From IMG/VR virus record IMGVR_UViG_3300030339_000012, positions 33,085 through 97,084 of that record: a stretch of DNA of 64,000 bases; one strand, written 5' to 3'. The notes below the pieces were generated by a model that searched no databases, was not told where the DNA came from, and worked only from the letters and a program-made list of their open reading frames with translations. Source of the DNA: a virus. Shown here one piece after another: positions 32,763-56,432 of the stretch (position 1 is the first letter of the stretch; every line of letters starts with the position of its first letter). The position numbers were made by a program, and so were the translations under genes.

Positions 32763-32987
32763 ATGAAAAGAATCAAATGTAAAAAATCAGATGTAGTAAC
32801 TGACAACAGAACCTACAACATTCTAAATAATGATAATACAGATCCTTATTGGGACGAAGGATTACACTTTTATCCAGAACAATCAAGAATAACAAGAAAG
32901 TTTAAAAAGAAACAATTGCTAATGTATCAAATAAGAATGTATAAAACTTGGAAGCACAATAGAAGTAATCAATATAAAGTAAAATAA
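32763..32987 (+). CDS. Small basic protein
   Basis: 74 residues. LHFYPEQSRITRKFKKKQLLMYQIR gives a very basic C-terminal half related to the RKxKL tails. First gene of the operon. Not recognised. Confidence 0.55.
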   Translation: MKRIKCKKSDVVTDNRTYNILNNDNTDPYWDEGLHFYPEQSRITRKFKKKQLLMYQIRMYKTWKHNRSNQYKVK

Positions 32988-32989
32988 TT

Positions 32990-33643
32990 ATGTTTTTTTT
33001 TAAAAGTAAAATAAATGAATTGACATATTTACGTCAATATACACATCATAGTGATTATGATTCATCAGAAAAAATGAAATATGAATCAATTGATAGTATT
33101 ATGAAATACTTCAGAAAAATGATTGATATTGATGAAAAATGTGGATTATCAATAGAATCAAAATTTAAAGATGTTATTTATCCTGTTTTTGATTTAGATT
33201 GTAAATCTAAATATGAATTATTTAAAACTTTACATGAAGATACTCCATATGTAATATTCATAAGTAGTTGTAACGATGACGATGATGATGAAAAAAAATA
33301 TCACTATTGGGGAATTATTGGAAATTCTAACAAAAAATTCAAAGAATTAATATCAAATCAAAATTGGAAAATCTGCAATGATAATAATTATGTAAAATTT
33401 TCAACAGAAATAAGTAAAATTCTAATTAGAGGAATATTTGAAAATAAAAATAGAAAGCCAAAATTATTTGAAAAAAATGGTATTCTATCTGAAGATTTTG
33501 AAATGTTCATATCTAAATTAGAAAGTCATTATAATACTAATGGCTTTGAATTGTCAGTATTAAGATATAAGAATACTGAACTATTGATACAATTCAATAG
33601 AAAATTAAAATTGAAAAAGATAAATTATAGTGAAAAAGAATAA
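32990..33643 (+). CDS. Conserved phage protein with basic tail
   Basis: 217 residues. LTYLRQYTHHSDYDSSEKMK, VIYPVFDLDCKSKYELFKTL, KYHYWGIIG, ILIRGIFENKNRKPKLF and GFELSVLRYKNTELLIQFNR follow a pattern I recall from a widespread phage protein family without known function. The FDLD and HYWGI spacing is faintly like small primase-type folds, which I cannot support further. Ends NRKLKLKKINYSEKE (tail family). It overlaps the mini-gene that follows by 14 bases. Confidence 0.65.
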   Translation: MFFFKSKINELTYLRQYTHHSDYDSSEKMKYESIDSIMKYFRKMIDIDEKCGLSIESKFKDVIYPVFDLDCKSKYELFKTLHEDTPYVIFISSCNDDDDDEKKYHYWGIIGNSNKKFKELISNQNWKICNDNNYVKFSTEISKILIRGIFENKNRKPKLFEKNGILSEDFEMFISKLESHYNTNGFELSVLRYKNTELLIQFNRKLKLKKINYSEKE

Positions 33644-33800
33644 AAAAAATGAAAATATTTTTAATGTAGTTAACTTAGATTTTGCAAGCTTATATCCATC
33701 CTCATTTAAAATTGATGAACGATTGATTGCTGAGCTAAATAGAAAAAAAACAAATGAAAAAAGACGGCAAAAGCTTGAAAAAATAAATAACTTAAAATGA
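33630..33800 (+). CDS. 56-residue mini-gene carrying a polymerase motif A-like peptide
   Basis: GTG start inside the previous gene and TGA stop in an ATGA overlap with the next gene. Residues 12-27 read NVVNLDFASLYPSSFK, a near-perfect family B DNA polymerase motif A (compare CFDFASLYPTTM in the polymerase at 10830). The rest is a charged helix ending RRQKLEKINNLK, the basic tail. It is too short to be a polymerase and has no exonuclease or motif C. A real, coupled gene is more likely than a decayed one because both junctions are tight. Confidence 0.5.
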   Translation: MKKNKKNENIFNVVNLDFASLYPSSFKIDERLIAELNRKKTNEKRRQKLEKINNLK

Positions 33801-34306
33801 AAAAAATAGTAAATGGATGTTTAAATTGTCCTTTTTGTCATACTGAGTATGATTATGATACAATAGGAAAACCAGACACTGATGTATGTGTATTGTCAAA
33901 TTATTTAAAATTAAATAATCCTTATATTGATTTGAATGAAAATGAATATAAACCAAAATGGTGTCCTCTTATAAATGATGATTATACTTTTAAATTTAAA
34001 GAATTTTCTGATAAAACAAAAAATGAGATACTAACTTTAAATAAAAAAATATCTGAAAATGAATACCAATATGGACAAGATTATGAAAATGATGAATTTG
34101 ATTATATTGCGAATAACATAGAAAACAAAGAATTATATAAAAAATTAGATGAATTGATGAATAATGATGAATTATCTGATTACAATGAAGACATCAAAGA
34201 AGAATTTAATAATAGTATAGATCAAGTTAAAAATCAATTGAAAAATTTAGAAGCACTTGGTACAAAATTAAACGATGAATTGAACAATTTAGGTAATATA
34301 CATTAA
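33797..34306 (+). CDS. Small Cys-rich protein with helical C-terminus
   Basis: 169 residues. CLNCPFCHTEYDYDTIG...CVLSN...KWCPL forms a probable zinc site in the first 60 residues. Residues 70-169 are acidic helices (coiled coil QVKNQLKNLEALGTKLNDEL). Translationally coupled to the mini-gene. Confidence 0.6.
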   Translation: MKKIVNGCLNCPFCHTEYDYDTIGKPDTDVCVLSNYLKLNNPYIDLNENEYKPKWCPLINDDYTFKFKEFSDKTKNEILTLNKKISENEYQYGQDYENDEFDYIANNIENKELYKKLDELMNNDELSDYNEDIKEEFNNSIDQVKNQLKNLEALGTKLNDELNNLGNIH

Positions 34307-34316
34307 TCTAAATATT

Positions 34317-34652
34317 ATGAAAATAATACCTATAAAATCAAAAAAACAAGATAATGGTTTGTGGGGTATGCCTAAAAATTGTTATTATATCGAACACTAT
34401 TTTCAATTAGAAGAAAGAAATGAATTTATTTTATCTGCATTAATAAATTGTTTGAATACTAAATTTAATGAGAGATTTGAAATGTCTCTTTTGAGTGAAA
34501 AAAAGATTTATTTTAAATTTGAAAAACATGGAACTGTGATTCTTTCATTTAATGATTATGAAGTATTTAATGATAAGTTGTATGAATTTGATAATGTTAA
34601 TGAACATAATATTTTTATGAGAAAACAGAAATTAATAGAAATTAATGTATAA
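34317..34652 (+). CDS. Small protein with basic tail
   Basis: 111 residues. KQDNGLWGMPKNCYYIEHYF then a helical and beta domain, ending FMRKQKLIEINV (tail family). Overlaps the next gene by eight bases. Not recognised. Confidence 0.55.
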   Translation: MKIIPIKSKKQDNGLWGMPKNCYYIEHYFQLEERNEFILSALINCLNTKFNERFEMSLLSEKKIYFKFEKHGTVILSFNDYEVFNDKLYEFDNVNEHNIFMRKQKLIEINV

Positions 34653-34935
34653 ATACAACAGCAATTCACCAGAATATCAAAAATTACTTGAAGAATTAAA
34701 ATTATATTATATAAATATACTTAAAGAATCAGAGTTCGGATATAATGTATATAGTGTATTAAGATTTATGAAAAGTGATAATAACAATTATGATTATATT
34801 GTTTCTGTTAAATTAGAAAAAAAATATAAATTAACAGGATATCATTATGTTATAGAACATCATTATTTATCTGAACTTCAATTAAATAATATAAGCAGAA
34901 TAAATAAACTGAATAAATTATGTCAGACAACATAG
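34645..34935 (+). CDS. Small tailed protein, paralogue of next gene
   Basis: 96 residues. Shares with the protein at 34920 the order xYxxLLxELKxYY, a beta hairpin, and LxELQxxxIxRIxKLNKL. The tail RINKLNKLCQTT is at the end. Function unknown. Confidence 0.6.
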   Translation: MYKYNSNSPEYQKLLEELKLYYINILKESEFGYNVYSVLRFMKSDNNNYDYIVSVKLEKKYKLTGYHYVIEHHYLSELQLNNISRINKLNKLCQTT

Positions 34936-35201
34936 TATCTAATTTAGATACTAAATCATATCTACTGTTATTAAGAGAATTGAAAAAATATTATAACAAA
35001 AAATTCAATAATAAATATGATTTTAGTATTCGTGAAATAGTTAAAGAATTCAATTCATCACTTTATACTGTAGTTATTATATTTCATTATAATAGTAAAC
35101 ATGATAGTTATGAAATTAAAATTTTAACTGAACTTCAAGTGATTTCAATATTGAGAATATCTAAACTAAATAAAATAAATGAAAGACACAGAATTAACTA
35201 A
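34920..35201 (+). CDS. Small tailed protein, paralogue of previous gene
   Basis: 93 residues. YLLLLRELKKYYNKKFNNKY, VIIFHYNSKHDSYEIKILTELQV and the tail LRISKLNKINE align with the preceding gene, so the pair is a tandem duplication now strongly diverged. Overlaps both neighbours. Confidence 0.6.
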   Translation: MSDNIVSNLDTKSYLLLLRELKKYYNKKFNNKYDFSIREIVKEFNSSLYTVVIIFHYNSKHDSYEIKILTELQVISILRISKLNKINERHRIN

Positions 35202-35448
35202 CGATGATTTTAAAGTAGGACAAATTGTCACTTGTGTAACATTTGATGATAATGATTACTGGGATCAACATTTGACAGTAGGGAAAAAATATAAAATTGA
35301 GGATATTGATTGGCATTTTGAAAATAAAATTGTGGTAAGAAGTGATAACAAAAAATTGAGTCAATTTGTACCAATACGATTTTTTTCTGATAAAAAAATA
35401 ATTAGAAAAATGAAATTAGAAAAACTGAATAAAATATGTACAAAGTAG
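35179..35448 (+). CDS. Small KVGD-type protein with basic tail
   Basis: 89 residues. FKVGQIVTCVTFDDNDYW, LTVGKKYKIEDIDW and IRFFSDKKIIRKMKLEKLNK: an SH3/KOW-like barrel followed by the tail. Paralogue of the next two genes and of 38132. Confidence 0.65.
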   Translation: MKDTELTNDDFKVGQIVTCVTFDDNDYWDQHLTVGKKYKIEDIDWHFENKIVVRSDNKKLSQFVPIRFFSDKKIIRKMKLEKLNKICTK

Positions 35449-35768
35449 GAGATATTATGGTTTGTATTGATAATACGCCTAAATCTGATAACATTTTTTA
35501 TGATTTCATTTCATATTGTTTAAAATACAAAAAATCAAATCCTTTAGAAATAAATAAAACATATACCATTAAAAAAATTCAATCATATTGGGATGATGAT
35601 GGAAATTGCTATGAATTACTTGATGATACTAGCAGTAGATATCAAAATACTTCATATATGTTAGAAGAAGTTGAGGAAATATATGGATATACAGTTTTTG
35701 ATATAAATAGATTTATTGGGTTAAAAGAATATAGAACATCAAAACTAAAAAAATTAAATGAAATATGA
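35436..35768 (+). CDS. Small KVGD-type protein with basic tail
   Basis: 110 residues. YKVGDIMVCIDNTPKSDN, LEINKTYTIKKIQSYWDDD, INRFIGLKEYRTSKLKKLN. Same layout as its neighbours with a longer insertion in the barrel. Overlaps both. Confidence 0.65.
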   Translation: MYKVGDIMVCIDNTPKSDNIFYDFISYCLKYKKSNPLEINKTYTIKKIQSYWDDDGNCYELLDDTSSRYQNTSYMLEEVEEIYGYTVFDINRFIGLKEYRTSKLKKLNEI

Positions 35769-36009
35769 CAAAATTATAGTTGGAGATTTTTTAATTTGCA
35801 TTAAAAATGATTATACAAATGATAACCTCATAACAGTAAATAAAGAATATAAAGTATTAGAAATAGGTAGAAATTATAGTACAATAACAATAATGACAGA
35901 TGTTGGTATCATATGCGATATAATATTTTATTCATTTTTCATTAGTAAAAGAATTTTAAGAAAAAATAAATTGAATAAATTGAATAAAATATTTTGTGAA
36001 TTGGATTAA
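35758..36009 (+). CDS. Small KVGD-type protein with basic tail
   Basis: 83 residues. IIVGDFLICIKNDYTNDN, ITVNKEYKVLEIGRNYS, FFISKRILRKNKLNKLNKI. Third in the tandem set; last gene before the RtcB promoter. Confidence 0.65.
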   Translation: MKYDKIIVGDFLICIKNDYTNDNLITVNKEYKVLEIGRNYSTITIMTDVGIICDIIFYSFFISKRILRKNKLNKLNKIFCELD

Positions 36010-36023
36010 TTGTTGTACATTTG
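35993..36023 (+). promoter_or_regulatory. Bacteroidetes-type promoter for rtcB
   Basis: TTTG at 35993-35996, 19-base spacer, TACATTTG at 36016-36023. Confidence 0.75.
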
Positions 36024-36075
36024 CAAAAAATATTAAAAAATAGAATTAAATTAATTAAAAAAAGTAGGTAAAATT

Positions 36076-37470
36076 ATGATTGAGTTAAAAGGTAAATATA
36101 CAGACGCTAAAATATTTATAGATGAAGTTGAAGAAGGAGTCTATACACAAATATACAATGTCATTAACTCAGAAACATCTAATGGGTTGAAAGTCAGACT
36201 AATGCCAGACGTGCATGTTGGCTCAGATATTTGTATTGGGTTTTCCATGGAATTGGGTAAGTATCTCAAACCAAGCACTATAGGTGTGGATATCGGCTGC
36301 GGGATGCTAAGTGCTAGATTTTCAGGTAGAACCACATTAGATTTAGAAAAAATTGATAATCTGATACGTGAAAATGTTCCTATGGGATTTGGTATGCACG
36401 AAGATATCAAATTTAAAAATATCCCTTTTGGTGATGTTCAAGTAATTGCAGATAACTTCATTGTAAAATTTAACGAAAAATTTGGGACATCTTATGATTC
36501 TCCATCATACAATGATAAATGGCTAACATCTAAATTGAAAGATATTGGAATTGATGAAGGTAAATTTTACAAATCTATTGGTACATTAGGAGGTGGTAAC
36601 CACTTTATTGAACTTGGTAAGTCAGATAAGACTAATGATTATTGGGTAACAGTCCACTCTGGGTCAAGAAACTTTGGACTTAAAATTGCGGAATACTGGA
36701 CTAAAGTTGCAAGAGGTAAAGTATTTGTTGCAACCAAAGAATATAACATGGAATTGGATGACATTACAATGAATACTTATCCTAAATCTGATATTGATAA
36801 AAAAATAAAAGAATTAAGGACAAGATACAGTCTTAATATTGACAAAGAATATTTAGATGGTGAGTATCTTATTGGATATCTATTTGATATGATTTTTGCT
36901 CAACAATATGCTCTATGGAGTAGAAAAACAATGTTATCATTGATAAAAAAAGCATTGAATATCAAAAAGTTTGATGAAGAAATTCATTCAATACATAACT
37001 ATGTTGATTTCAAAGATTTTATCATAAGAAAAGGTGCAATCTCATCTTATGTTGGTGAAAAAATGATTATACCATTCAATATGAGAGATGGAATACTTAT
37101 ATGCGAAGGTAAATCAAATGAAGATTGGAACAACTCAGCACCACATGGGTCTGGTCGTTTGATGTCAAGATCAAAAGCAAAAGAGTCAATTGATTTAAAA
37201 GATTTTCAGAAAGTAATGAAAGGTATATATTCAACATCTGTATGTAAAAGTACAATTGATGAATCACCATTTGCTTACAAAAACTCTGATATGATTGAAA
37301 AAGCTATCGAGCCTACTGCATTAATTCTTGATAAAATAAAACCAATCTTAAACATAAAAGATAAATCTGAAGGTACATCTTGGAAAGATAAGAAAGAGCA
37401 AAAAAAGAAAGATAAGCAACGTAACAACGAAAGAAATGAAGTTTCTTATCAAAAGATGAAAAAATTCTAA
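36076..37470 (+). CDS. rtcB: RtcB RNA ligase
   Basis: Joins 2',3'-cyclic phosphate and 5'-OH RNA ends using GTP and Mn2+. Hallmarks: LMPDVHVGSDICIGF, GVDIGCGM (metal-binding C75), LGGGNHFIEL (H176), TVHSGSRNFG (H194), HNYVDF (H307) and SAPHGSGRLMSR with H357 in the position of the guanylated histidine. 464 residues is normal length, with a basic C-terminal tail (KKEQKKKDKQRNNERNE). Own host-type promoter and terminator. The usual phage use would be repair of tRNA or rRNA cut by host ribonucleases; no tRNA gene is in this window. Confidence 0.95.
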   Translation: MIELKGKYTDAKIFIDEVEEGVYTQIYNVINSETSNGLKVRLMPDVHVGSDICIGFSMELGKYLKPSTIGVDIGCGMLSARFSGRTTLDLEKIDNLIRENVPMGFGMHEDIKFKNIPFGDVQVIADNFIVKFNEKFGTSYDSPSYNDKWLTSKLKDIGIDEGKFYKSIGTLGGGNHFIELGKSDKTNDYWVTVHSGSRNFGLKIAEYWTKVARGKVFVATKEYNMELDDITMNTYPKSDIDKKIKELRTRYSLNIDKEYLDGEYLIGYLFDMIFAQQYALWSRKTMLSLIKKALNIKKFDEEIHSIHNYVDFKDFIIRKGAISSYVGEKMIIPFNMRDGILICEGKSNEDWNNSAPHGSGRLMSRSKAKESIDLKDFQKVMKGIYSTSVCKSTIDESPFAYKNSDMIEKAIEPTALILDKIKPILNIKDKSEGTSWKDKKEQKKKDKQRNNERNEVSYQKMKKF

Positions 37471-37472
37471 AT

Positions 37473-37510
37473 AAAAAAGGATGAAAAAATTATTTTCATC
37501 CTTTTTTTTT
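37473..37510 (+). terminator. Rho-independent terminator after rtcB
   Basis: Stem 37473-37487 with 37493-37507, flanked by A6 and T9 runs. Confidence 0.9.
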
Positions 37511-37517
37511 GCGAAAA

Positions 37518-37549
37518 TTTGTAAGATACAAATAATTTTATTATCTTTG
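37518..37549 (+). promoter_or_regulatory. Bacteroidetes-type promoter
   Basis: TTTG at 37518-37521, 20-base spacer, TATCTTTG at 37542-37549, directly behind the rtcB terminator. Confidence 0.75.
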
Positions 37550-37563
37550 CACAAAATATAAAA

Positions 37564-37746
37564 ATGACAGAAGAAGATAGAAAAAAATATGAAGTAACTC
37601 TTAGAGAAAATCTATTAAAGCATATTGATGATTTAAGAGAAAAAATTTCAAGTAATGAGATTTTTCCACATGGAAGTCAAGATTTAGAATCATTAGTTGA
37701 AATTGATGATAATATTGAAGCTTGTTTAAATTGTTGGTATTATTAA
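37564..37746 (+). CDS. Very small acidic protein
   Basis: 60 residues, helical (LRENLLKHIDDLREKISSNE) and ending CLNCWYY. Not recognised. First gene behind the promoter. Confidence 0.55.
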   Translation: MTEEDRKKYEVTLRENLLKHIDDLREKISSNEIFPHGSQDLESLVEIDDNIEACLNCWYY

Positions 37747-37756
37747 TCTTAAAAAT

Positions 37757-38035
37757 ATGAAACAAGTATTAGATGAAACTAAACAGATTCATTATGTAGA
37801 TGAATGTGAGATTATAGAATTTATAACAATAAATTCTAACATGGAATGGAACGACTGTTGCGATTATATAAGAGAGCATAATATATCATCAGTAGAAGGT
37901 ATATCTCATTGGATAAAATCTGAATTAATTGAAGAAAATAGAGATGATTATGACACAGAAGCATATTATTGGGTATTAGCTTTTTTTGAAGCACATCCTT
38001 GGATAAATAAAATGATGATTGTTTTTGACAGTTAA
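37757..38035 (+). CDS. Conserved small phage protein
   Basis: 92 residues, acidic. MEWNDCCDYIREHNISSVEG and AYYWVLAFFEAHPWINKMMI form a pattern I recall from other phage small proteins; function unknown. The 96-base gap that follows holds only two overlapping micro-frames. Confidence 0.6.
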   Translation: MKQVLDETKQIHYVDECEIIEFITINSNMEWNDCCDYIREHNISSVEGISHWIKSELIEENRDDYDTEAYYWVLAFFEAHPWINKMMIVFDS

Positions 38036-38131: not shown

Positions 38132-38365
38132 ATGTTTAAATTAGGAGAAATTGTAGTTTGTATTGATGATAGTGATGATACTACTACATATGAACCATAT
38201 AAAAATTTAAAAAAATACTCAACATATGAGGTAAAGAATGACGGATATTATTTTAATACTATTAGTGTTTCATTAACTGATATAAAAGGAAGATTCAGAG
38301 TAACAAGATTCATGTCTGTTAAAGAATATAGAAAATTAAAATTAGAAAAATTAAATAAAAAATAA
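38132..38365 (+). CDS. Small KVGD-type protein with basic tail
   Basis: 77 residues. FKLGEIVVCIDDSDDTT, STYEVKNDGYYF, VTRFMSVKEYRKLKLEKLNK: the cleanest example of barrel plus tail. Ends 11 bases before dnaK. Confidence 0.7.
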   Translation: MFKLGEIVVCIDDSDDTTTYEPYKNLKKYSTYEVKNDGYYFNTISVSLTDIKGRFRVTRFMSVKEYRKLKLEKLNKK

Positions 38366-38376: not shown

Positions 38377-40263
38377 ATGGGAAAAATTATTGGAATTGAC
38401 TTGGGTTCATATAACTCAGCAGTATCTATTGTAGAAGGTGGACAAACAATTGTCATACCTAATTCAGAAGGATCAGTATCAACACCATCTGTTGTTGCAT
38501 TTGATGTGAAAACAGGAGAAATTAAAGTTGGTGATGCAGCTAAAAGGCAAGCAGCATTAAATCCAAAAAACACAATTTTTAATATCAAAAGACTTATTGG
38601 TAGAACTTATGACGAAGTTAAACATCTAAAACGTCCTTATGACATTGTAGATAATAATGGTAAAGCTGCTGTAAAAATTGGAGATAGAATATATTCACCA
38701 GAAGAAATATCTGCAATCATTCTTCAAAAAATGAAAAAAACAGCAGAGGATTATCTTGGAGCAAATGTAGAAAGTGCTGTAATAACAGTACCAGCGTATT
38801 TTAATTCAGATGAAAGAAGTAGCACAAAAGTAGCAGGAGAAATTGCTGGATTAAAAGTAGAAAGAATTATATCAGAACCAACTGCTGCTTCATTAAACAT
38901 AAAAAATGAAACTGATAAATTATATTTTATAATAGATAGTGGTGGTTGTACATCAGATTTTAGTTCAATTTCAATTGAAGATGGCTTATTTGAAGTAATA
39001 GCAACAGATGGTAGTTTAGATCTTGGAGGTAATTTAATTGATGATGCACTTGTTAATTACATTTCTGATGATTTTTTAAAAGAATCAGGAGTAGATATAA
39101 GAAAAGATCCTATGGCTCTTCAACGTGTCACAGAAGCAGCAGAAAAAGCAAAAATTGAGTTATCTAATGTTACACAAACAGAAATCAATTTACCTTATAT
39201 TACTGCAGTTGACGGAACGCCAAAACATTTAGTTAAAACTATAACTCGTGCCAAATTTGAACAATTAATTCAATTTTATGTTGACGAAACAATGAAATTA
39301 ATTAAATCATCAATTAAAAAAAGCAATAAGAATATAAGTGATATTGATGAAATTGTTCTTGTAGGAGGTAGCACAAGAATACCATATTTAGTAGATAACA
39401 TTGAAAAATATTTTGGTAAGAAATCTAACAAGTCTCTTAACGCTGATACTGCCATAGCATCAGGGGCTGCTATACAAGGATCCGTTCTTGCTGGAGATAC
39501 AACTGACATATTATTACTTGATGTTACAGCGTTGAGCTTCTGTATTGAAACCATGGGTGGTGTATCAACTAAAATGATAGAAGCAAATACTACAATACCG
39601 ACAAGTAAGTCACAGGTATTCAGTACGGCTTCGGATAACCAACCAAGTGTCCAGGTTAATGTTTGTACAGGAGAAAGACCTATGTATGTAAACAACAAAC
39701 ACTTAGGTACATTTTCACTTGATGTTCCACCTGCTCGTAGAGGTACACCACAAGTAGAAATCACATTCAGCATTGATAGCAATTCTATTCTAACAGTCAA
39801 AGCTGTTGATAAAGCAACTGGAAAATCCAATGATATTAGAATTGAAGGTAAATCATCGTTAACAAAAGAAGAGATTGAAAGAATGAAGAATGAAGCTGAA
39901 CAAAATGCTGATTCAGATAAAAAAGAAAAAGAGAAAGTTGATAAACTTAATCAAGCAGATTCTATGATTTTTCAAACAGAAAAACAAATTGAAGATTTTT
40001 CTGATAAGTTAACTGAAGAAAACAAAACTGAATTGAATTCTAAGCTTGGTAATCTTAAAGAAGCTCACAAAACTCAAAATGTTGATACTATTGATAACTG
40101 CATTAAAGAATTGAATGATTCTTGGCAAAATATTAGTTCTAAGCTTTATGAAAAATCTCAAAATGAGTCAACAAATGATTCTAATCCAACAAATGAAACT
40201 CAATCACCTAATAAAGATGATTCTGAAAATGTGACAGACGTAGATTTTGAGGAAGTAAAATAA
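38377..40263 (+). CDS. dnaK: DnaK (Hsp70) chaperone, divergent nucleotide-binding loops
   Basis: ATP-driven protein-folding chaperone, 628 residues with all parts: ATPase domain (1-375), linker DILLLDVTALS, substrate-binding beta domain (GTPQVEITFSIDSNSILTVKA) and helical lid, ending DVDFEEVK. Kept: IGIDLG, FNIKRLIGR with the K70 equivalent, ISEPTAASL with the E171 equivalent, VLVGGSTRIP. Changed: phosphate-1 loop DLGSYNS (DLGTTNS in DnaK) and phosphate-2 loop DSGGCTSDFSS (DLGGGTFDVS). Those loops contact nucleotide phosphates, so kinetics may differ. No DnaJ or GrpE gene is nearby, so host co-chaperones would be needed. Very unusual in a phage. Confidence 0.95.
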   Translation: MGKIIGIDLGSYNSAVSIVEGGQTIVIPNSEGSVSTPSVVAFDVKTGEIKVGDAAKRQAALNPKNTIFNIKRLIGRTYDEVKHLKRPYDIVDNNGKAAVKIGDRIYSPEEISAIILQKMKKTAEDYLGANVESAVITVPAYFNSDERSSTKVAGEIAGLKVERIISEPTAASLNIKNETDKLYFIIDSGGCTSDFSSISIEDGLFEVIATDGSLDLGGNLIDDALVNYISDDFLKESGVDIRKDPMALQRVTEAAEKAKIELSNVTQTEINLPYITAVDGTPKHLVKTITRAKFEQLIQFYVDETMKLIKSSIKKSNKNISDIDEIVLVGGSTRIPYLVDNIEKYFGKKSNKSLNADTAIASGAAIQGSVLAGDTTDILLLDVTALSFCIETMGGVSTKMIEANTTIPTSKSQVFSTASDNQPSVQVNVCTGERPMYVNNKHLGTFSLDVPPARRGTPQVEITFSIDSNSILTVKAVDKATGKSNDIRIEGKSSLTKEEIERMKNEAEQNADSDKKEKEKVDKLNQADSMIFQTEKQIEDFSDKLTEENKTELNSKLGNLKEAHKTQNVDTIDNCIKELNDSWQNISSKLYEKSQNESTNDSNPTNETQSPNKDDSENVTDVDFEEVK

Positions 40264-40358: not shown

Positions 40359-40601
40359 ATGTTCAATATAAATAGGAAACATCTTTGTAAGAAAAACTCA
40401 AAGTATTGTATTAAAGGTAATATTTATGATATTCATATGATATCTTTTAATTGTATTTCAATATATTTGGATAATTATCCTATTTATGAAAATTTTATAT
40501 TTGAGGAAGGTTATTATACATATTTAAATTTTTATGATTATTTTTATACTGAGAAGGAAGAAAGGAAATTAAAATTAGAAAATATTAAAAATGTCAGATA
40601 A
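40359..40601 (+). CDS. Small tailed protein, paralogue of next gene
   Basis: 80 residues, aromatic-rich. Ends FYDYFYTEKEERKLKLENIK (tail family). The region SKYCIKGNIYDIHMISFN corresponds to the next protein. Overlaps it by 11 bases. Confidence 0.55.
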   Translation: MFNINRKHLCKKNSKYCIKGNIYDIHMISFNCISIYLDNYPIYENFIFEEGYYTYLNFYDYFYTEKEERKLKLENIKNVR

Positions 40602-40890
40602 TAAAAAAATAAATAAAGAAAGGAAATATCGTTGCAAAGAATCAATATATGGTTTTATAATAAATAAATATTATGAAATTAATGAGATATACACATATAT
40701 GATTGAGATGCGTATTATTGTTAATTATCAATATAATTATTATTGTTTCTCATTAGAAGATGATTATGATTCACTTCCTAATTTTAATAGATTTTTTTAT
40801 TCTGAGAAAGAAGAAAGGAAAGTAAAATTAAAACAAATAGAAGAATCACAAAAAATCACAAAAAATAATAATATTTTACTTGAAGCATAA
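40591..40890 (+). CDS. Small tailed protein, paralogue of previous gene
   Basis: 99 residues. RYRCKESIYGFIINKYYEIN and NRFFYSEKEERKVKLKQIEE match the preceding gene; the tail is followed by 16 further residues. Confidence 0.55.
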   Translation: MSDNKKINKERKYRCKESIYGFIINKYYEINEIYTYMIEMRIIVNYQYNYYCFSLEDDYDSLPNFNRFFYSEKEERKVKLKQIEESQKITKNNNILLEA

Positions 40891-41128: not shown

Positions 41129-41356
41129 ATGACGAAAGATGAAATTTTACAGCAAATTAAAAATGAAGCATTAAATAATATTGCTAAAATTTATAATCCA
41201 AAATATAAGTTTGATTATTATGAATGTGATAATATAGGAGAGTATGGAGGTGAAGATGTAAGTTGTTCTGAACAAAGAGAGAACAAAATCAGTTCTATTA
41301 TTGAAAAAATGAATAAAGACATTGAAGAAACTAAGAAAAAATATAAATTTAAATAA
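41129..41356 (+). CDS. Small hypothetical protein
   Basis: 75 residues, charged, with DYYECDNIGEYGGEDVSCSE and a helical end KKKYKFK. Not recognised. Confidence 0.5.
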   Translation: MTKDEILQQIKNEALNNIAKIYNPKYKFDYYECDNIGEYGGEDVSCSEQRENKISSIIEKMNKDIEETKKKYKFK

Positions 41357-45025: not shown

Positions 45026-45319
45026 ATGAAGGAATTAATTGAACAATTAAAAAAAAGTTGTGATGACTTAGAATTAATTTCTGAACTTACTTTAAAATAT
45101 AAGGATATTAAAGTAGTCGGAGAAATGCTTTTCTACAAAAAATTGGAGGAAGGTATTCTTAATAAATTGATGAATGCTAACGTGCATCAATTGGAAATTA
45201 TGAAGAATTCATATAAATTCAGATATTATAAAGATGAATACACTGATAAACTCATTGACATTGCAATAATAAATGTAACAAGAAAGAATAAATTAAATAA
45301 ATTAAATTTAATAAATTAA
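45026..45319 (+). CDS. Small tailed protein
   Basis: 97 residues, helical, ending TRKNKLNKLNLIN (tail family). Not recognised. Confidence 0.55.
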   Translation: MKELIEQLKKSCDDLELISELTLKYKDIKVVGEMLFYKKLEEGILNKLMNANVHQLEIMKNSYKFRYYKDEYTDKLIDIAIINVTRKNKLNKLNLIN

Positions 45320-45602: not shown

Positions 45603-45914
45603 ATGTCAAATTGGAATTATAGAATATTAGCAAGAAGAATAGCATCAGATTCATACTCAGATGTACATTTTGGTGTTTATGAGGTGTATTATAATGATGA
45701 AACTAATATACCTGAAGCTTGTACAGAAAATCCAATAACAATATTATCATATGAAGGTGAATGTGAAGATCCAATTGAATCAATACAATGGCAATTAGAT
45801 GTCATAAAAGAAGCAACTAAAAAACCAGTATTAGATTATGATAACTTTCCAAATGAGTATGTTAAGCATCTAAGAAAAAAAAAATTGAAACAAATTGGAA
45901 GTAAACTTACGTAA
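45603..45914 (+). CDS. Conserved phage protein with basic tail
   Basis: 103 residues. NWNYRILARRIAS, YEVYYNDETNIPEACTENPI, DPIESIQWQLDVIKEATKKP resemble a small protein family common in phages and plasmids (NWNYR...EVYYD...TENPV). Ends VKHLRKKKLKQIGS (tail family). A late-like TATATATAC lies upstream. Confidence 0.65.
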   Translation: MSNWNYRILARRIASDSYSDVHFGVYEVYYNDETNIPEACTENPITILSYEGECEDPIESIQWQLDVIKEATKKPVLDYDNFPNEYVKHLRKKKLKQIGSKLT

Positions 45915-46050
45915 ACTTTTCACTTATGATATAGTAGCAAATCCAGCATTTTATAACTGTACATTTAAAATAATATATGATAGAGAAGCTGAAATAAAAA
46001 AACTTAAAAATGATAGAATAGAAAAAATAAATAGATTAAATAATCTATAA
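45895..46050 (+). CDS. 51-residue mini-gene with a prohead-protease-like peptide
   Basis: TTG start overlapping the end of the preceding gene in another frame; there is no ATG. Residues 7-20 read KLFTYDIVANPAFYNC, which resembles the C-terminal (F/Y)DIVxNPSF segment of T4 gp21-type prohead proteases. The rest is a charged helix ending RIEKINRLNNL (tail family). It could be a small gene or a remnant joined to a tail; evidence is the motif and the intact 52-codon frame only. Confidence 0.35.
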   Translation: MEVNLRKLFTYDIVANPAFYNCTFKIIYDREAEIKKLKNDRIEKINRLNNL

Positions 46051-48607: not shown

Positions 48608-49393
48608 ATGAAAAAAATAAAAACATTTGACGAACATAATTCTACAGTTCAATCAAAAGTACCTTTTACTAAGCAAACAATGAAATTAGACATTGATTGG
48701 AGAGCAGCAAAGGATTTTGATTTACACTACTATTATAAATGGGTGTGTGATCATCGTATTAAAAATGATGAAAATGGCTGTAATTTACCAAATGGCGCTG
48801 ATTCTTGGGTAGCTGACACATCTAAATTGGACTATATGAGTAAACAGAAAAAAGATTGGTTGTATGAGTATGCATTATCAAAAGGTGGTAGCCCAAAACC
48901 AGCATTTACTATTAAAAAAGACACAAAAATTAAAGTTGTCGATGAAAAATACAATTTGATAATTGAAATTTTAGATGGTCCATATGCTGGTGAAAAATTT
49001 GAAGCAAAGTTATCTGATTTTAGAACTTGCTTGGTTGGTGAAGCTAAAGATGAAAATTTAGTTGTTTCTAAGTATAAGATATTCTTAAACGGAGAACCAT
49101 TGAAATCAAAATATTATACTAACATGGGAAGAATCAAGCTTGCTTTACTAAATGCATTTGGGTTTCAAAATAGTAATGATAATGATAATGATAATGAAGA
49201 TGGTGTGCCATATTACATTTCGGATTCTAGTTCAACAACATTAAGTAAAAATGATTGTAAAAATGTTAAAATCATTAGATATGACAATAATTCAAAAGTT
49301 GGAATTCCTGTTGATTTTAATGTTCTGGAATTTTATGTTGAATATTTGGAAAAAAAAGAGTTAAAAAAAGACTCAAAAAAATATAATTTATAA
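48608..49393 (+). CDS. Doubly tagged protein (N-tag and KYNL end)
   Basis: 261 residues. N-terminus MKKIKTFDEHNSTVQSK and C-terminus KKDSKKYNL are the two terminal peptides otherwise found in the 23-27 kb late genes. The middle has KKDTKIKVVDEKYNLIIEIL (beta barrel) and a NDNDNDNED spacer. Function unknown; its tags suggest the same destination as the late proteins. Confidence 0.6.
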   Translation: MKKIKTFDEHNSTVQSKVPFTKQTMKLDIDWRAAKDFDLHYYYKWVCDHRIKNDENGCNLPNGADSWVADTSKLDYMSKQKKDWLYEYALSKGGSPKPAFTIKKDTKIKVVDEKYNLIIEILDGPYAGEKFEAKLSDFRTCLVGEAKDENLVVSKYKIFLNGEPLKSKYYTNMGRIKLALLNAFGFQNSNDNDNDNEDGVPYYISDSSSTTLSKNDCKNVKIIRYDNNSKVGIPVDFNVLEFYVEYLEKKELKKDSKKYNL

Positions 49394-51045: not shown

Positions 51046-51070
51046 CAATAAAAATTAAATACTATAAATT

Positions 51071-51334: not shown

Positions 51335-51338
51335 AAAT

Positions 51339-51656
51339 ATGAAAACTAAAAATGCAATTTTATTCTCAAATGTAGACAGAGAAGATTACTGGGTATCTAA
51401 TGGGCTTGTTTTTAAAGTTGAAAACACAGATACATATATTAATGCTTATAATGAAATAAAAGATAAATTAGAGTCTAAAGAAGTTATTGATTATATAATA
51501 GAAGAAGCTTGTTTATTGGATGATTTATTTGAAGGTGATGAAACTTATAAATTTTTGAAGACTGAATATATTCATAGTTTATATTTCACTTTTCAAAATA
51601 GTATTGGAGAACAAGTTGAGCATAAAATGTCAGCGGATTTTGTATTTTCACTTTAA
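51339..51656 (+). CDS. Hypothetical acidic protein
   Basis: 105 residues, acidic. Not recognised. Confidence 0.5.
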   Translation: MKTKNAILFSNVDREDYWVSNGLVFKVENTDTYINAYNEIKDKLESKEVIDYIIEEACLLDDLFEGDETYKFLKTEYIHSLYFTFQNSIGEQVEHKMSADFVFSL

Positions 51657-51667
51657 AAAATAAAATT

Positions 51668-51808
51668 ATGTCATCAGAAAACAAAAAAAGGAAATTGAAA
51701 AATTCTTATTGTGTTAAAAGTTGGTTAAAAAACAAAACAATAAAAATTAAAAGATTAGGATTCTATAATGCATCAAAAAGAAAAGTTGATAAAAGAATAG
51801 AAGAATAA
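51668..51808 (+). CDS. Very small basic protein
   Basis: 46 residues, strongly basic (SSENKKRKLKNSYCVKSWLK). ATG 11 bases after the preceding stop and 20 bases before the next gene, so it fills the operon slot. A nucleic-acid binder is plausible from charge alone. Confidence 0.5.
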   Translation: MSSENKKRKLKNSYCVKSWLKNKTIKIKRLGFYNASKRKVDKRIEE

Positions 51809-51828
51809 AATAATTAAAAATTGAAAAT

Positions 51829-52083
51829 ATGAATAGATTTTTTGGTATGATGCCTTCAAGTGAGGTAAAAAAAAGTAAAAGTTTTAAAGTTGGAGCTGGT
51901 CAATTAACAGTAACAATTGATGCAGGAGAAAATGGCTGGACAATTTTATTTGCTGATAGCTCATCAGAATATAAAGATGTCGTAGATACCACTGAAAACA
52001 ATTTCAATTCAGCATTAGATGTTTTGAAAACTCATTTTTGTGATATAAATGAAATAAATGAAATTGAAAAATTTGAATGCTAA
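51829..52083 (+). CDS. Conserved small phage protein
   Basis: 84 residues. MNRFFGMMPSSEVKKSKSFK, LTVTIDAGENGWTILFADSS and a C-terminal helix form a pattern I recall from many phages; function unknown. Confidence 0.7.
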   Translation: MNRFFGMMPSSEVKKSKSFKVGAGQLTVTIDAGENGWTILFADSSSEYKDVVDTTENNFNSALDVLKTHFCDINEINEIEKFEC

Positions 52084-52099
52084 ATAATTAGTATAAAAA

Positions 52100-52366
52100 A
52101 TGATAACAAATTTGAATATTGGAGATAAAATTATTCTAAAAAAACCTTCAAATATATTTGAGGAATTTGGAATACCATCAGATTTGAGTGTTGATGAAAC
52201 TTATACTATATCTGAGATACATAAAGGATTAATTGATAATGTCATTATACGTGTTGGAATAAAAGAAAAACCATATTCATTATATTATATTGGATTATTT
52301 GAAACATCATTGAAATTTGAAAGAAGACAAAAATTAAACAACTTGAAAAAATATGAAAAAAACTAA
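52100..52366 (+). CDS. Small KVGD-type protein with basic tail
   Basis: 88 residues. LNIGDKIILKKPSNIFEEFG, LSVDETYTISEIHKG, YIGLFETSLKFERRQKLNNLK: barrel plus tail, overlapping the radical SAM gene by 14 bases. Confidence 0.6.
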   Translation: MITNLNIGDKIILKKPSNIFEEFGIPSDLSVDETYTISEIHKGLIDNVIIRVGIKEKPYSLYYIGLFETSLKFERRQKLNNLKKYEKN

Positions 52367-53429
52367 TTTAAAACTGGCAAACGGAGAAAAAGCACTAATT
52401 GTTGATAACAATGAAGTGAAAATTTTAAAATCAGAAAACTACAATTTTCTATTTAATAAAAAAACAGGATTCTTTGCCAGATGGGGTAAAACAGAAGAAG
52501 ATGATGGAGATTTAAATCTTGGATTACCTGAAATTGCAGATATCGAAATTGCTGAAATTTGTGAAGGTGTTCCTGGAATAGGGCCATGTAAATTCTGCTA
52601 TAAGAGTAATGGTAATCATGGACATAATATGTCATTAGAAACATTCAAAAAAGTTTTCGATAAATTACCATCAAGTATTGGACAAATCGCATTTGGTTGT
52701 GGTACATTGAGAAGACATCCTGAAATGTGGGAAATTTTCAAATATGCGAAAGATAATGGTGTCACACCAAATTTGACAATAAATGGTGACGTTGATGATG
52801 ATGAATTTGATAAAATTTCTGAGATGTGCGGAGCATGTGCAGTTTCTATTTATGATAAAAATCTATCATATGACGCTATTAAAAAACTTACTGATCGTGG
52901 AATGAAACAAGTGAATATTCACTATATGATTAGTCAAGAAACATATGAAAAGGCATTTGAAATAATGGATGATATAAAAACTGATCCAAGACTTGAAAAA
53001 TTAGGAGCATTAGTATTTTTGAGTTTAAAAACAAAAGGTAGAAGCAAAGGCAAATTTCATCAATTGACTCAAGAACAATTTTCTAATCTTACTAATTATG
53101 CTCTTACTAATTCTGTTCCTATGGGATTTGATTCTTGCTCAGCACAAAAATTCATGAAAGCAATTAAAGGACATGTAAATGAAGAAAAAATGATTCAATG
53201 TGCAGAACCTTGTGAAAGCACACTATATAGCTTATATGTTGATGTCAATGGCAATTTCTTTCCATGTTCATTTTCACCTGATACAGAAGGTTGGGAAAAA
53301 GGATTATCTGTAATTGATTGTAATGATTTCATTGAAGATATTTGGCAAAATGAAAAAACAAAAAAATTCCGTGATGGTGTCATAAAATGTAGGAACTGTG
53401 CTAAAAGTTGTTCAATTTATGAAATTTAA
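52353..53429 (+). CDS. Radical SAM enzyme with Cys-rich C-terminus
   Basis: 358 residues. The cluster motif is AEICEGVPGIGPCKFCYKSN: C70, C79 and C82, a CX8CX2C spacing rather than CX3CX2C. Downstream are IAFGCGTLRRHPEMWEIFKY (strand 2) and LTINGD. The C-terminus has CAEPCESTLYSLYVDVNG, NFFPCSFSP and CRNCAKSCSIYEI, resembling the auxiliary-cluster SPASM/twitch region of peptide- and protein-modifying radical SAM enzymes. The substrate is unknown. It ends the operon with a bidirectional terminator. Radical SAM genes are uncommon in phages. Confidence 0.88.
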   Translation: MKKTNLKLANGEKALIVDNNEVKILKSENYNFLFNKKTGFFARWGKTEEDDGDLNLGLPEIADIEIAEICEGVPGIGPCKFCYKSNGNHGHNMSLETFKKVFDKLPSSIGQIAFGCGTLRRHPEMWEIFKYAKDNGVTPNLTINGDVDDDEFDKISEMCGACAVSIYDKNLSYDAIKKLTDRGMKQVNIHYMISQETYEKAFEIMDDIKTDPRLEKLGALVFLSLKTKGRSKGKFHQLTQEQFSNLTNYALTNSVPMGFDSCSAQKFMKAIKGHVNEEKMIQCAEPCESTLYSLYVDVNGNFFPCSFSPDTEGWEKGLSVIDCNDFIEDIWQNEKTKKFRDGVIKCRNCAKSCSIYEI

Positions 53430-53440
53430 TTTATATAATT

Positions 53441-53476
53441 TTTTATTAATATTCTAAATTTAGAATATTAATAAAA
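53441..53476. terminator. Bidirectional terminator
   Basis: A perfect 36-base palindrome (18 bp per arm) between the convergent radical SAM (+) and membrane protein (-) genes; its 3' part covers the last codons of the minus-strand gene. Confidence 0.7.
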
Positions 53477-53942
53477 AATATGATATTGAAACAGTTAAAA
53501 ATGTAAATATTTCTATCCACCAAACTATATTTGGCTTCATTTTTGGTATTAAATATGTTATAGCAGTCAATAACAATAAGCCTGCAGTTAAATACCATTG
53601 ATTCATAATGAATGTAATAAATATTTGGGAGAAAAATATACCAACTATAGCTCCAATTGAGTGAACTGTATTTTCCATTTTTAAATCTTTAAAAGCAGGA
53701 GCAGCACCAACAAAGCATATACCTGATCCAGCTAAAAACATCAATCCAGATAACGGAACTCCAATCATAATAGCAGGAATTGCATATCCCCACATCGCAA
53801 TAGTAAAAAGAAATTGTAAATTTCTTGGAAGTTTATAATAACTCAATGAAACTGATGACAATACTCCATATGTTAAAAACATTGATAATACATATGAAAT
53901 GAAAAAAGTATTCATAATTAAATATAAAATTAAATTATTCAT
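53460..53942 (-). CDS. Polytopic membrane protein
   Basis: 160 residues with five to six hydrophobic helices (FLTYGVLSSVSLSYYKLP, IAMWGYAIPAIMIGVPLSGL, LMFLAGSGICFVGAAPAF, IVGIFFSQIFITFIM). Not recognised. An in-frame ATG nine codons in is an alternative start. Confidence 0.6.
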   Translation of the reverse strand: MNNLILYLIMNTFFISYVLSMFLTYGVLSSVSLSYYKLPRNLQFLFTIAMWGYAIPAIMIGVPLSGLMFLAGSGICFVGAAPAFKDLKMENTVHSIGAIVGIFFSQIFITFIMNQWYLTAGLLLLTAITYLIPKMKPNIVWWIEIFTFLTVSISYFLLIF

Positions 53943-53991
53943 AGTTTATTTTTATTGTATATATTTATTATCAAATTTAATTTTTTAAAAA

Positions 53992-54201
53992 ATGAAAATA
54001 AAAATAGAAGATTTATCTTTTAAAGAAGAATTGGAATTAATTGATTCTGCACTTTATAATGCTATTTATATTATGAGATGGACAGAAAACAAAGAAGGAT
54101 TATATGCAGTACTTCAAGTAGAAGAAGCTGAGAAGATGGTGGAAGATATAGTAAGTGAATTGAATAAAATAGGGTACGAAATAAAAAAAATTGAAAAATA
54201 A
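53992..54201 (+). CDS. Small helical protein
   Basis: 69 residues, acidic helices (VEEAEKMVEDIVSELNKIG). Not recognised. It diverges from the membrane protein across a 49-base gap. Confidence 0.5.
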   Translation: MKIKIEDLSFKEELELIDSALYNAIYIMRWTENKEGLYAVLQVEEAEKMVEDIVSELNKIGYEIKKIEK

Positions 54202-54233
54202 TTTGGTAATTACAAAAATAGTTTGTATCTTTA
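54202..54233 (+). promoter_or_regulatory. Bacteroidetes-type promoter
   Basis: TTTG at 54202-54205, 20-base spacer, TATCTTTA at 54226-54233 (last base differs from consensus). Confidence 0.6.
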
Positions 54234-54245
54234 ATAATATTATAA

Positions 54246-54500
54246 ATGACAATATTTACACTAAGTCTTAATAATTTCTTTTTCGATATTGAAGATAATA
54301 TTTTTTATCATAGATATAATAGTTTTAGAGTAAAGTTTGTGGAATTTCAGACACATAACGAATTTCATTTATATTACGGAGGTTACGATAATTATCTAGG
54401 AAGCTTTACTGATGAAGAAATATTTATTAAAAAAATGAAAGATTATAATATTAAGATATTGAGATATAAAAAATTAAAAGAATTAGAACTCACAAAATAA
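54246..54500 (+). CDS. Small tailed protein
   Basis: 84 residues, beta-rich, ending ILRYKKLKELELTK (tail family). First gene behind the promoter. Not recognised. Confidence 0.55.
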   Translation: MTIFTLSLNNFFFDIEDNIFYHRYNSFRVKFVEFQTHNEFHLYYGGYDNYLGSFTDEEIFIKKMKDYNIKILRYKKLKELELTK

Positions 54501-54507
54501 TAATCAT

Positions 54508-54810
54508 ATGCAAAAAAATATTTTAAATTTAGTAAATAGTTTTTGGAAATTTGATTCTGAACAACAACCATCATCAAGCTGGAATGATAAACAAGACTTA
54601 TTAAAAGAGATTGAAAAAATTCAATTTGAAGAACTTGCGTCTGTTCGAAATAAATTAAGTCCTATATATAATTTATTAACAATGTTAGAAAGTTCATCTG
54701 ACGGAGAAAAAATAGTTATCAAAGATTCATTATATTTATTGGTAATATCTGAGATTAAAAAATCAAAAGAAGTTGTTGAATATATCGCTAAAAAAGATTT
54801 AGAAAAATGA
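54508..54810 (+). CDS. Helical small protein
   Basis: 100 residues, helical (LLKEIEKIQFEELASVRNKL). Not recognised. ATGA overlap with the next gene. Confidence 0.5.
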   Translation: MQKNILNLVNSFWKFDSEQQPSSSWNDKQDLLKEIEKIQFEELASVRNKLSPIYNLLTMLESSSDGEKIVIKDSLYLLVISEIKKSKEVVEYIAKKDLEK

Positions 54811-55259
54811 TTGATGAAAATGTTTTATTTTTAACTTTCGATGCATCAGGATTTAATGGTCCTCGTCTTAAATATTATAAAGGAGAAATTTATAAGTTTG
54901 TAAAAATAGAATATCCTGGTCTGAAATTTAATAGCACATTTACCTGTGTTGTAAATTATAGTATTGATATTAAATTGATACGTAAATTGAAATTGATGAG
55001 TGTAGCAAATCAAATAAAACATAATAGCAAAGAAGATTTAATATTAAGTTTTATTGAAAAATCAAAGACTCTTAATGATAAAAAAGAATTTCATTATCCT
55101 AATCCTAATTATTGGTATAACTCAGATGTTGGAAATGATATACTATTTGAAGAAAGAGAAATGTTAAGAGTTGAAAAATTAGAAAGCAACAAAAACAAAT
55201 CAAAAATGTATAGTCAAAAAATAAAACAATACAACAATAACAGAAACTATCGTAGATAA
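54807..55259 (+). CDS. Hypothetical protein with internal tail-like segment
   Basis: 150 residues. Residues 1-55 are a beta domain closing with IDIKLIRKLKLMSVANQIKH; the tail here is followed by 95 more residues, ending in a Lys/Asn-rich stretch. Shows that tailed domains can be fused to further sequence. Confidence 0.5.
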   Translation: MIDENVLFLTFDASGFNGPRLKYYKGEIYKFVKIEYPGLKFNSTFTCVVNYSIDIKLIRKLKLMSVANQIKHNSKEDLILSFIEKSKTLNDKKEFHYPNPNYWYNSDVGNDILFEEREMLRVEKLESNKNKSKMYSQKIKQYNNNRNYRR

Positions 55260-55262
55260 TTT

Positions 55263-55544
55263 ATGAAAGAAGATACATGGAAAGATATTTTTATTAGACA
55301 AATTGGTTCTGGTAGATTTTGGAAAAATTTACTAAATAATGATTTTGATAATAGAAAATTTTTAGATAGAAGTGATGCAGTTTATATCTGCAAAAAAGCT
55401 CAATCTGACGCTTATGATAATTTAATTATAATCCTAAATAAAGATTATGATATTGATAAAGAGATTATAATTAATATTAAAAAAATACAATTTGAATTGT
55501 GGAATACTGATGATTCAGGATTAGGATTAATAAAATTAAAATAG
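55263..55544 (+). CDS. Small hypothetical protein
   Basis: 93 residues (YICKKAQSDAYDNLIIILNK). Not recognised. Directly abuts the next start. Confidence 0.5.
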   Translation: MKEDTWKDIFIRQIGSGRFWKNLLNNDFDNRKFLDRSDAVYICKKAQSDAYDNLIIILNKDYDIDKEIIINIKKIQFELWNTDDSGLGLIKLK

Positions 55545-56432
55545 ATGAATAAATATTTCACATATACAATAAAAGACAAAAAAGATAAAAATTATCTTTT
55601 TATTAAATATCTTATTGTAACTAATATAAAATTTTCAAGTTATCATGAATGCGAATATGGTGAGTATATAACTTTCAGTGTTAATAATAACATTCCAAGA
55701 AAATTAAAATTAAAAGTTCTAAATAACATAAAAATTAGTTATGAAGAACAACAAATTTTAGAAATTATTAGTCAGTCTACACCAGGTGTGAGAATGGATG
55801 TTATGTGTGGTTCTGATTTTAATCACACTTCTGAAACAGCAAAAAATTTCTCAAATACAAACAACGTAATTTGCAGTTTCAATTTTAATGGTATAATTTG
55901 TTTAATTGACAAAAGTACAAATCTCAATAATTTATATAAGTATTATAATGATGCTCATTTGATGGAATGGGCTAAAATTGGTCCTATATGTGATGATGAA
56001 TATGATGATAAAACTAAAATTGAGTATGAAAAAAAATTAAAAATATCTGAGGAAAAATCTATAAAAAGAAGAATTGAAGAACACAAAAAAGATATTGAAG
56101 TTAAAAGAAAGTATAAAGAAAAAATAAAAGGAATTGATATTGAACTATTAAATCAAAAAGATTGGGATGATTGGAAGTTAAAAAATAAAGATTCATACGG
56201 AAATTGTGTATTTGAATATGCTGAAGGATGGGCTAAATTAATGCAATCAGAAGCAAAATCAAAAAGTAAAGAAATTGATATTGAATTACTAAAAGAAATT
56301 GCAAGTAAAACATCATTTGAAATGGATTTTTTAGGAATATCAGGATCAATGTTTTATGCAGCTCAATCAATTCTTGTACAATGTTGGAAATATGGTAGTT
56401 TACTTAAAGAATGGAGTGAAATCAATAAATGA
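55545..56432 (+). CDS. Conserved phage protein, two parts
   Basis: 295 residues. Residues 1-60 repeat the beta domain plus IPRKLKLKVLNNI arrangement of the gene at 54807. The C-terminal 85 residues (EYAEGWAKLMQSEAKSK, MDFLGISGSMFYAAQSILVQ, WKYGSLLKEWSE) match a family I recall from many phages, function unknown. ATGA overlap with the HisRS-like gene. Confidence 0.65.
   Translation: MNKYFTYTIKDKKDKNYLFIKYLIVTNIKFSSYHECEYGEYITFSVNNNIPRKLKLKVLNNIKISYEEQQILEIISQSTPGVRMDVMCGSDFNHTSETAKNFSNTNNVICSFNFNGIICLIDKSTNLNNLYKYYNDAHLMEWAKIGPICDDEYDDKTKIEYEKKLKISEEKSIKRRIEEHKKDIEVKRKYKEKIKGIDIELLNQKDWDDWKLKNKDSYGNCVFEYAEGWAKLMQSEAKSKSKEIDIELLKEIASKTSFEMDFLGISGSMFYAAQSILVQCWKYGSLLKEWSEINK

Follow-up and report, generated by a model that had tools for sequence, protein, structure and literature searches.

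Why should many small proteins with differing bodies, encoded on one piece of viral DNA, end in nearly the same short peptide? The question is posed by a stretch of 64,000 nucleotides (hereafter the window) that corresponds to bases 33085-97084 of the 97,084-base virus record IMGVR_UViG_3300030339_000012 (guanine plus cytosine content, GC, 0.246). An initial annotation, made from the letters alone, had pointed out about twenty such proteins, and all 20 of the C-terminal sites that it listed (20/20) match the pattern R-x-x-K-[LI]-x-x-[LI], which we call the tag. Altogether, 26 genes of the window and 4 more upstream of it in the same record carry this pattern. Six genes had been overlooked (those at 12326, 30125(-), 30917(-), 41129, 58350 and 60676), the last three being weaker matches. 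The interpretation that we favour, and hold to be reasonably probable, is that the tag is a modular C-terminal address helix through which numerous accessory proteins would dock onto one and the same partner.

The best matches of the window's DNA polymerase and DnaK-like protein are found in LR756501 (735 kb), LR756502 (642 kb), LR756504 (636 kb) and LR745206 (635 kb). The four largest genomes described by Al-Shayeb et al. (2020) were placed by those authors in the Mahaphage clade, with Bacteroidetes as predicted hosts (PMC7162821). Judged by these matches, the window belongs to a fragment of a huge phage, and its nearest relatives with complete genomes are the Mahaphages (634-735 kb). Close relatives in IMG/VR include G004 (330 kb, polymerase 91% identical) and G002 (256 kb, polymerase 83% identical). 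Because the record is only a fragment, genome-wide statistics were taken from relatives, whose genomes were read in 20-kb pieces. Genes were called by a simple longest-open-reading-frame rule and all counts are therefore approximate; the tag count of Lak-A2 in particular may be unreliable, since stop-codon recoding, possible in such phages, is ignored by the gene calls.

Occurrence and anatomy of the tag

With the stricter pattern R..KL..[LI] confined to the last 30 residues, 27 of the 161 proteins in the whole record are tagged. The initial annotation had said that its view would be refuted if a composition-matched shuffle produced such tails just as often; when each tail was shuffled in this way (200 runs), chance gave a mean of 0.33 matches and a maximum of 3 versus the 27 observed. 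Outside the tails, proteins of the same record contain just 4 R..KL..[LI] matches in 25,894 residues. The two internal occurrences that had also been listed, at 54807 and 55545, consequently provide no evidence: internal matches are at chance level, and the one at 54807 lacks the final [LI]. If K[LI] is allowed, the tag is present in 95 of 595 proteins of G004 and 113 of 466 of G002; in a further relative 32 of 310 carry it. In the window's own record, G004 and G002 alike, unsupervised counts of four-residue patterns rank R..KL..L, R..KL.K and RK.KL highest. There are also AT-rich relatives without the tag, namely LR756500 (GC 0.239; 1/312) and G009 (GC 0.25; 0/78). Together, the tail shuffles, the counts in protein bodies and these untagged AT-rich relatives rule out chance or AT-rich composition. 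Nor was the tag enriched in two jumbo phages available in culture, MA9V-2 (Chryseobacterium) and PAU, represented by 50 kb each. A DNA pattern for RKxKLxKLNE, run on 2.9 million viral contigs, returned 56 stretches; in these and two more from a second pattern, 63 of the 65 in-gene occurrences lie within the last 30 residues. Tagged genes are clustered along the genome, and one stretch from the viral-contig scan is an island in which 21/21 genes are tagged.

The consensus derived from 238 proteins is F-[YI]-[TS]-x-x-E-[IYL]-R-K-x-K-L-x-K-[LI]-N-[EKN]-I. The tag Arg (position 0) is usually 11-14 residues from the C-terminus, with a range of 9 to about 24, and the tag need not be at the very end. 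In G004, R..K[LI]..[LI] is observed 93 times versus 2.1 after shuffling, the corresponding figures being 3 versus 2.3 for K..R and 24 versus 9 for K..K. In other words, Lys cannot substitute for Arg at position 0, and an unspecific Lys-rich tail is ruled out. The pattern is amphipathic, with two near-invariant aliphatic residues, and Glu at -2, near the Arg, is common. In the AlphaFold2 model of the SH3-like barrel encoded at 38132..38365 (+; 77 residues; predicted local distance difference test score, pLDDT, 83.8), the tag EYRKLKLEKLNKK is predicted to form a single helix, residues 63-75, straight after the last strand. A fold search with this model gave SH3/Tudor/chromo-like matches, none reaching E <= 0.001. 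The mean charge of the tag is +3.1 to +3.5 in the window's clade and +0.4 to +1.2 in its Mahaphage versions.

These properties bear on two explanations that dispense with a specific receptor. The first is a membrane-targeting amphipathic helix of the MinD/FtsA type, or non-specific binding to the nucleoid via positive charge. Although the basic and amphipathic tag of the window's clade would suit either, Lys does not replace the tag Arg, other versions of the tag are near neutral and a bulky aromatic face is missing, so that we consider this explanation highly improbable. The nucleoid, one of the partners suggested in the initial annotation, is disfavoured by the same near neutrality of the Mahaphage versions. 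The second explanation is self-association, in which tag helices would bind each other and thereby bundle or condense tagged proteins. An amphipathic terminal helix with Glu close to Arg would be suitable for this, and the encapsulation peptides of bacterial microcompartments set a precedent, since these terminal helices have been shown to draw cargo into condensates by means of hydrophobic packing and salt bridges between Arg and Glu (PMC12339742). The hydrophobic face of the tag, however, is short, consisting of two near-invariant aliphatic residues, and we regard self-association as quite unlikely.

Bodies of the tagged proteins and selection on the peptide

Are the tagged proteins really unrelated, as had been claimed? 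When 236 tagged bodies from three genomes were clustered by sequence, 78 clusters resulted. The claim holds only in part: 90 of the 236 bodies belong to one SH3-like barrel family, the largest cluster, and the others make up the further 77. This family raises the possibility that every tagged protein is a diverged SH3-like barrel together with its C-terminal helix. Such a view gains some support from the dominance of the family and from LR745206, in which a barrel aligns to one from the window's clade, the positions of the two tags coinciding; this alignment suggests that barrel plus tag share common ancestry between the two lineages. Nonetheless, the other 77 clusters include Tad3, riboflavin kinase, BtpA-like and membrane proteins, and a barrel fold would not explain why Arg and Lys are strictly conserved where body identity is <50%. 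Whole-length homology of all members, which the initial annotation had named as an outcome that would overturn its view, is thus not what we find, and descent of all members from one barrel appears very unlikely.

The diversity of bodies is seen in other ways as well. In free alignments, only RDxKLxxIL is retained among 101 tagged LR756502 proteins and only RKxKLxKL among 81 tagged G002 proteins. Tagged bodies include zinc fingers and membrane proteins, the latter mostly with an N-terminal membrane segment, and in LR756502 also the riboflavin kinase and the BtpA-like protein. One identified body in the window is a Tad3-like protein, i.e. a homolog of a type I Thoeris inhibitor (30340..30924, -; 194 residues; tail SYIRYKKLKKLK). 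It matches PF25185 with E 9e-39 (window 30550-30921; 128 bits versus a curated cut-off of 27) and PDB 9b7d with E 2.8e-24 over residues 3-167, the tag lying beyond the matched part. Its structure model (pLDDT 44) was too poor and was not used. Relatives of this huge-phage Tad3-like protein occur in Vibrio phage phi50-12 and crAss-like phages.

The conservation of the tag was followed in ortholog pairs, for which tagged genes of three relatives were matched by reciprocal best hits. The Arg at position 0 (Arg0) is identical in all pairs of four directed comparisons (27, 21, 49 and 52 pairs, the last two overlapping) and Lys+3 is kept in 96-100% of them. In the bodies of the same pairs, Arg is kept in 36-52% and Lys in 56-62% of cases. 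Strict retention of both tag residues extends to pairs with body identity <50%, and there is almost no loss of the tag among orthologs. At the DNA level the tag is unremarkable. The use of Arg, Lys and Leu codons equals genome-wide use, only the split between the Ile codons ATA and ATT being shifted, and synonymous changes are about as frequent in the tag as in the bodies of orthologs; the earlier remark that codons differ between copies was correct. Because codon use is ordinary and synonymous change body-like while the amino acids are kept, selection acts on the peptide and not on the DNA.

This also bears on a signal at the level of nucleic acid, whereby the tail codons would act in ribosome binding or coupling for the gene that follows and often overlaps. 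In the record, overlap with the next gene is indeed seen for 20 of 29 tagged genes versus 17 of 76 others. The idea is contradicted by the genome-like codon choice (Ile apart) and body-like synonymous change, by the retention of amino-acid identity but not of DNA, and by tagged genes that have no close downstream neighbour; we judge it extremely improbable.

The tag comes in lineage-specific dialects: R-[DNE]-x-K-[LI]-x-x-[IL]-[LG] in LR756502 and LR745206, R-K-x-[IRK]-I-x-x-L in LR756504 and R-S-x-K-L-x-E-I-L in contig G007. It is essentially absent from LR756501 (2/1083), where two proteins homologous to tagged ones stop just short of the tail, and it is absent from some homologs in other phages. 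Two relatives that lack the tag, LR756501 and LR756500, have recurrent termini of their own. LR756501 (loci L012-L048) carries DPYGEExW at about 45 C-termini and in about 21 N-terminal regions, often directly after a MIKKFKLFE-type start, and in LR756500 NADDFGFFDN endings are found on MKYIKEYEDF proteins.

Two protein classes and the proposed docking

A second C-terminal signature, KFN[IL], is present in 23 genes of the record and is tied to an N-terminal signature of the MKYIKKFE type. The genes concerned lie at 23595-24219, 25674-27000 and 48608-49393 of the window, with 18 genes upstream of it. In T4, the N-terminal capsid-targeting sequence (CTS) directs internal proteins into the head and marks packaged proteins (PMC5694885). 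By their resemblance to this sequence, proteins with MKYIKKFE plus KFN[IL] are probably packaged in the head. The tag avoids this class: among 252 proteins whose N-terminus is capsid-targeting-like it is present in 8, versus 451 of 2491 others (Fisher p 3e-12). It also avoids large proteins, being found in 3 of 377 proteins of >=300 residues versus 484 of 2527 smaller ones. Both trends fit the earlier description of the tagged set as early-type accessory genes, to the extent that sequence can suggest it. Among barrel homologs, 92 of 96 are tagged, and related barrels with a capsid-targeting-like start (G002_242 and G002_211) end in KFN[IL]. Since barrels occur either tagged or with KFN[IL], one body family bears either address. 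Yet another shared start, MKIRxGFVSNSSSSSF or close to it, is found on differing bodies of seven proteins at 57113-62104 of the window; no mention of GFVSNSSSSSF was found in the open-access literature.

Based on these observations, docking might work as follows. The tag, which roughly one fifth of the small accessory proteins of the phage bear, would form a C-terminal helix, amphipathic and some 12-18 residues long, with the core R-x-x-K-[LI]-x-x-[LI]. By the Arg, the Lys and the two aliphatic residues of this core it would dock into a single common partner, and docking would gather or place accessory proteins (for host takeover or counter-defence) during infection. The second address, N-terminal MKYIKKFE with C-terminal KFN[IL], would mark the proteins probably packaged in the head. 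As dialects differ by lineage, the partner is probably phage-encoded or co-evolving. It is tempting to go further, if only tentatively, and to suppose that huge phages of the Mahaphage group possess a protein-sorting code, possibly made of lineage-specific terminal tags with at least two exclusive classes (head-packaged and accessory), in which the accessory tag would be read by a phage-encoded hub co-evolving with the dialect.

Docking by a shared helix had already been suggested in the initial annotation, and that part agrees with the modularity of the tag, the conservation of Arg and Lys, the helix model and the dialects. Its candidate partners (RNA polymerase, the sliding clamp, the nucleoid and a phage compartment) gain no support from the present data. 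Import into the phage nucleus (ChmA shell, Imp1/PicA) resembles the role proposed for the tag in that huge-phage proteins are selectively placed, but it is reported to operate without terminal signals (PMC13282480). No phiKZ-type nuclear shell protein was detected by sequence; among 11 records, a phiKZ gp54 query matched phiKZ alone, although such a query might overlook a homolog that has diverged very far.

Several points weigh against docking onto a common partner. A comparison of tag-bearing and tag-lacking genomes revealed no obvious receptor; the genes shared with LR756502 and missing from LR756501 comprise PARG-like, HisRS-like and MgtC-like genes (names read from sequence) and unknowns, none of them convincing. 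In the barrel family the modelled helix directly follows the last strand and could in part be an element of the barrel fold itself. Finally, the genomes of the clade are fragments and gene calling by longest open reading frame is crude.

Docking could also serve destruction. The tail would then be a degron: a protease of the host or the phage, or an adaptor of that protease, would recognise it and clear accessory proteins after their early action. The most basic version of the tag resembles some basic C-terminal degrons. The location near the C-terminus (Arg usually 11-14 residues from it) and the confinement to proteins that are small and do not start with a capsid-targeting-like sequence would both be expected of such a signal. 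On the other hand, the tail is found on enzymes and inhibitors that the phage would want stable (riboflavin kinase, Tad3), its spacing to the end varies and the very end is not needed, and phages whose predicted hosts belong to one phylum nevertheless use different dialects. We therefore consider a degron unlikely.

Known systems and the tagged genes of the window

Terminal address peptides are already known in general, and three kinds invite comparison. The T4 CTS is, like the tag, a short terminal peptide common to unrelated phage proteins, in this case one that decides their destination, and it is resembled by the MKYIKKFE-type N-termini described above. It differs in being N-terminal and in marking packaged, cleaved head proteins; the tag is C-terminal and nearly absent from CTS-like starts. 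Encapsulation peptides of bacterial microcompartments and cargo peptides of encapsulins share with the tag a terminal amphipathic helix on unrelated cargo, which in the known system is read by a partner (PMC12339742). In contrast to these, tag bodies are mostly phage accessory proteins and the tag core needs exact Arg and Lys. The microcompartment shell protein family PF00936 was absent from the 11 records, control genomes being positive; the search covered phage records, not the host. The third kind are C-terminal peptides that bind the sliding clamp and RNA polymerase (such as those of T4 gp33/gp55), which are common to several phage proteins and dock on one hub. They are acidic-hydrophobic and in this respect differ from the tag core. 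In the open-access literature we found no account of non-virion phage proteins that carry a tag of this kind. Since the T4 CTS and the encapsulation peptides each differ from it in a defining feature and no account turned up in that literature, the tag appears to be new as a system, with a function that we infer. According to a 2026 review, the role of hundreds of small genes of huge phages is an open question (PMC13282480). A tag on about one fifth of small proteins offers a single handle on them, and finding its binder would make the class interpretable. It also provides a means, based on sequence only, to tell accessory proteins from those that are probably packaged and to identify candidates for counter-defence; one tagged member is a homolog of a Tad3-type Thoeris inhibitor.

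Apart from the genes already located, the tag is carried by the following genes of the window, all on the plus strand unless stated. Two lie in its first part: 12326..12832 (168 residues, YIRDKKLKKIKNI; overlooked before) and 14182..14421 (79 residues, LIRKQKLQKLSEY; conserved in G002 and G004). The Tad3-like gene is accompanied on the minus strand by 30125..30343 (72 residues, IRLDKLNEIISKSN; orthologs tagged), 30917..31297 (126 residues, ILRRNKLGKIVDN), both previously overlooked, 31231..31494 (zinc-ribbon-like, 87 residues, NSRKEKLKKLKKLK) and 31481..31735 (SH3-like barrel, 84 residues, KEYRKLKIKMLN). Further on are 32990..33643 (217 residues, FNRKLKLKKINYS; ortholog tagged) and 34317..34652 (111 residues, FMRKQKLIEINV), then two helical paralogs at 34645..34935 (96 residues, ISRINKLNKLCQ) and 34920..35201 (93 residues, ILRISKLNKINER). 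SH3-like barrels are encoded at 35179..35448 (89 residues, IIRKMKLEKLNKI), 35436..35768 (110 residues, EYRTSKLKKLNEI), 35758..36009 (83 residues, ILRKNKLNKLNKI), 40359..40601 (80 residues, EERKLKLENIKNV) and 40591..40890 (99 residues, EERKVKLKQIEES followed by more residues). A possible tagged protein of 75 residues at 41129..41356 has a weak match, SEQRENKISSIIEK, 26 residues before its end. The remaining proteins with terminal tags are found at 45026..45319 (97 residues, VTRKNKLNKLNLIN), 45603..45914 (103 residues, HLRKKKLKQIGSK; a phrog_21321 match covers residues 1-80 only), 52100..52366 (88 residues, FERRQKLNNLKKY) and 54246..54500 (84 residues, ILRYKKLKELELTK), the last two with tagged orthologs. 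Weaker are 58350..58796 (148 residues, SRYLKLLSLK), possibly a chance match, and 60676..61314 (212 residues), with MKIRNGFVSNSSSSSF at the N-terminus and YKRKDKLDEITKNL as tail.

Some tagged proteins resemble pieces of core phage proteins. A 56-residue protein at 33630..33800 (+; tail KRRQKLEKINNLK) contains LDFASLYPS, similar to motif A of family B DNA polymerases, and such tiny tagged proteins recur in several phages (window 33630-33800; L075:3495-3644; L186:3154-3393; L267:1881-2126). Their short sequences may represent mimics or decoys, or be unrelated to polymerase. The polymerase frame of the window itself (10830-12311, 493 residues) matches a 502-residue polymerase family, and since motif A lies close to the end of the frame, the family B polymerase may be split. 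Short frames similar to pieces of core head proteins include a tagged 51-residue fragment resembling a prohead core/protease protein (45895..46050, +; tail NDRIEKINRLNNL), and weak Gp23 matches were noted in records G017 and G019 (loci L238 and L265), with one tagged protein among those scanned. One tagged LR756502 protein shows a weak match to EF-Tu models. The phage-encoded DnaK-like protein (628 residues, window 38377-40263), with homologs in LR756501, LR756502, LR756504 and LR745206, adjoins a tagged barrel gene.

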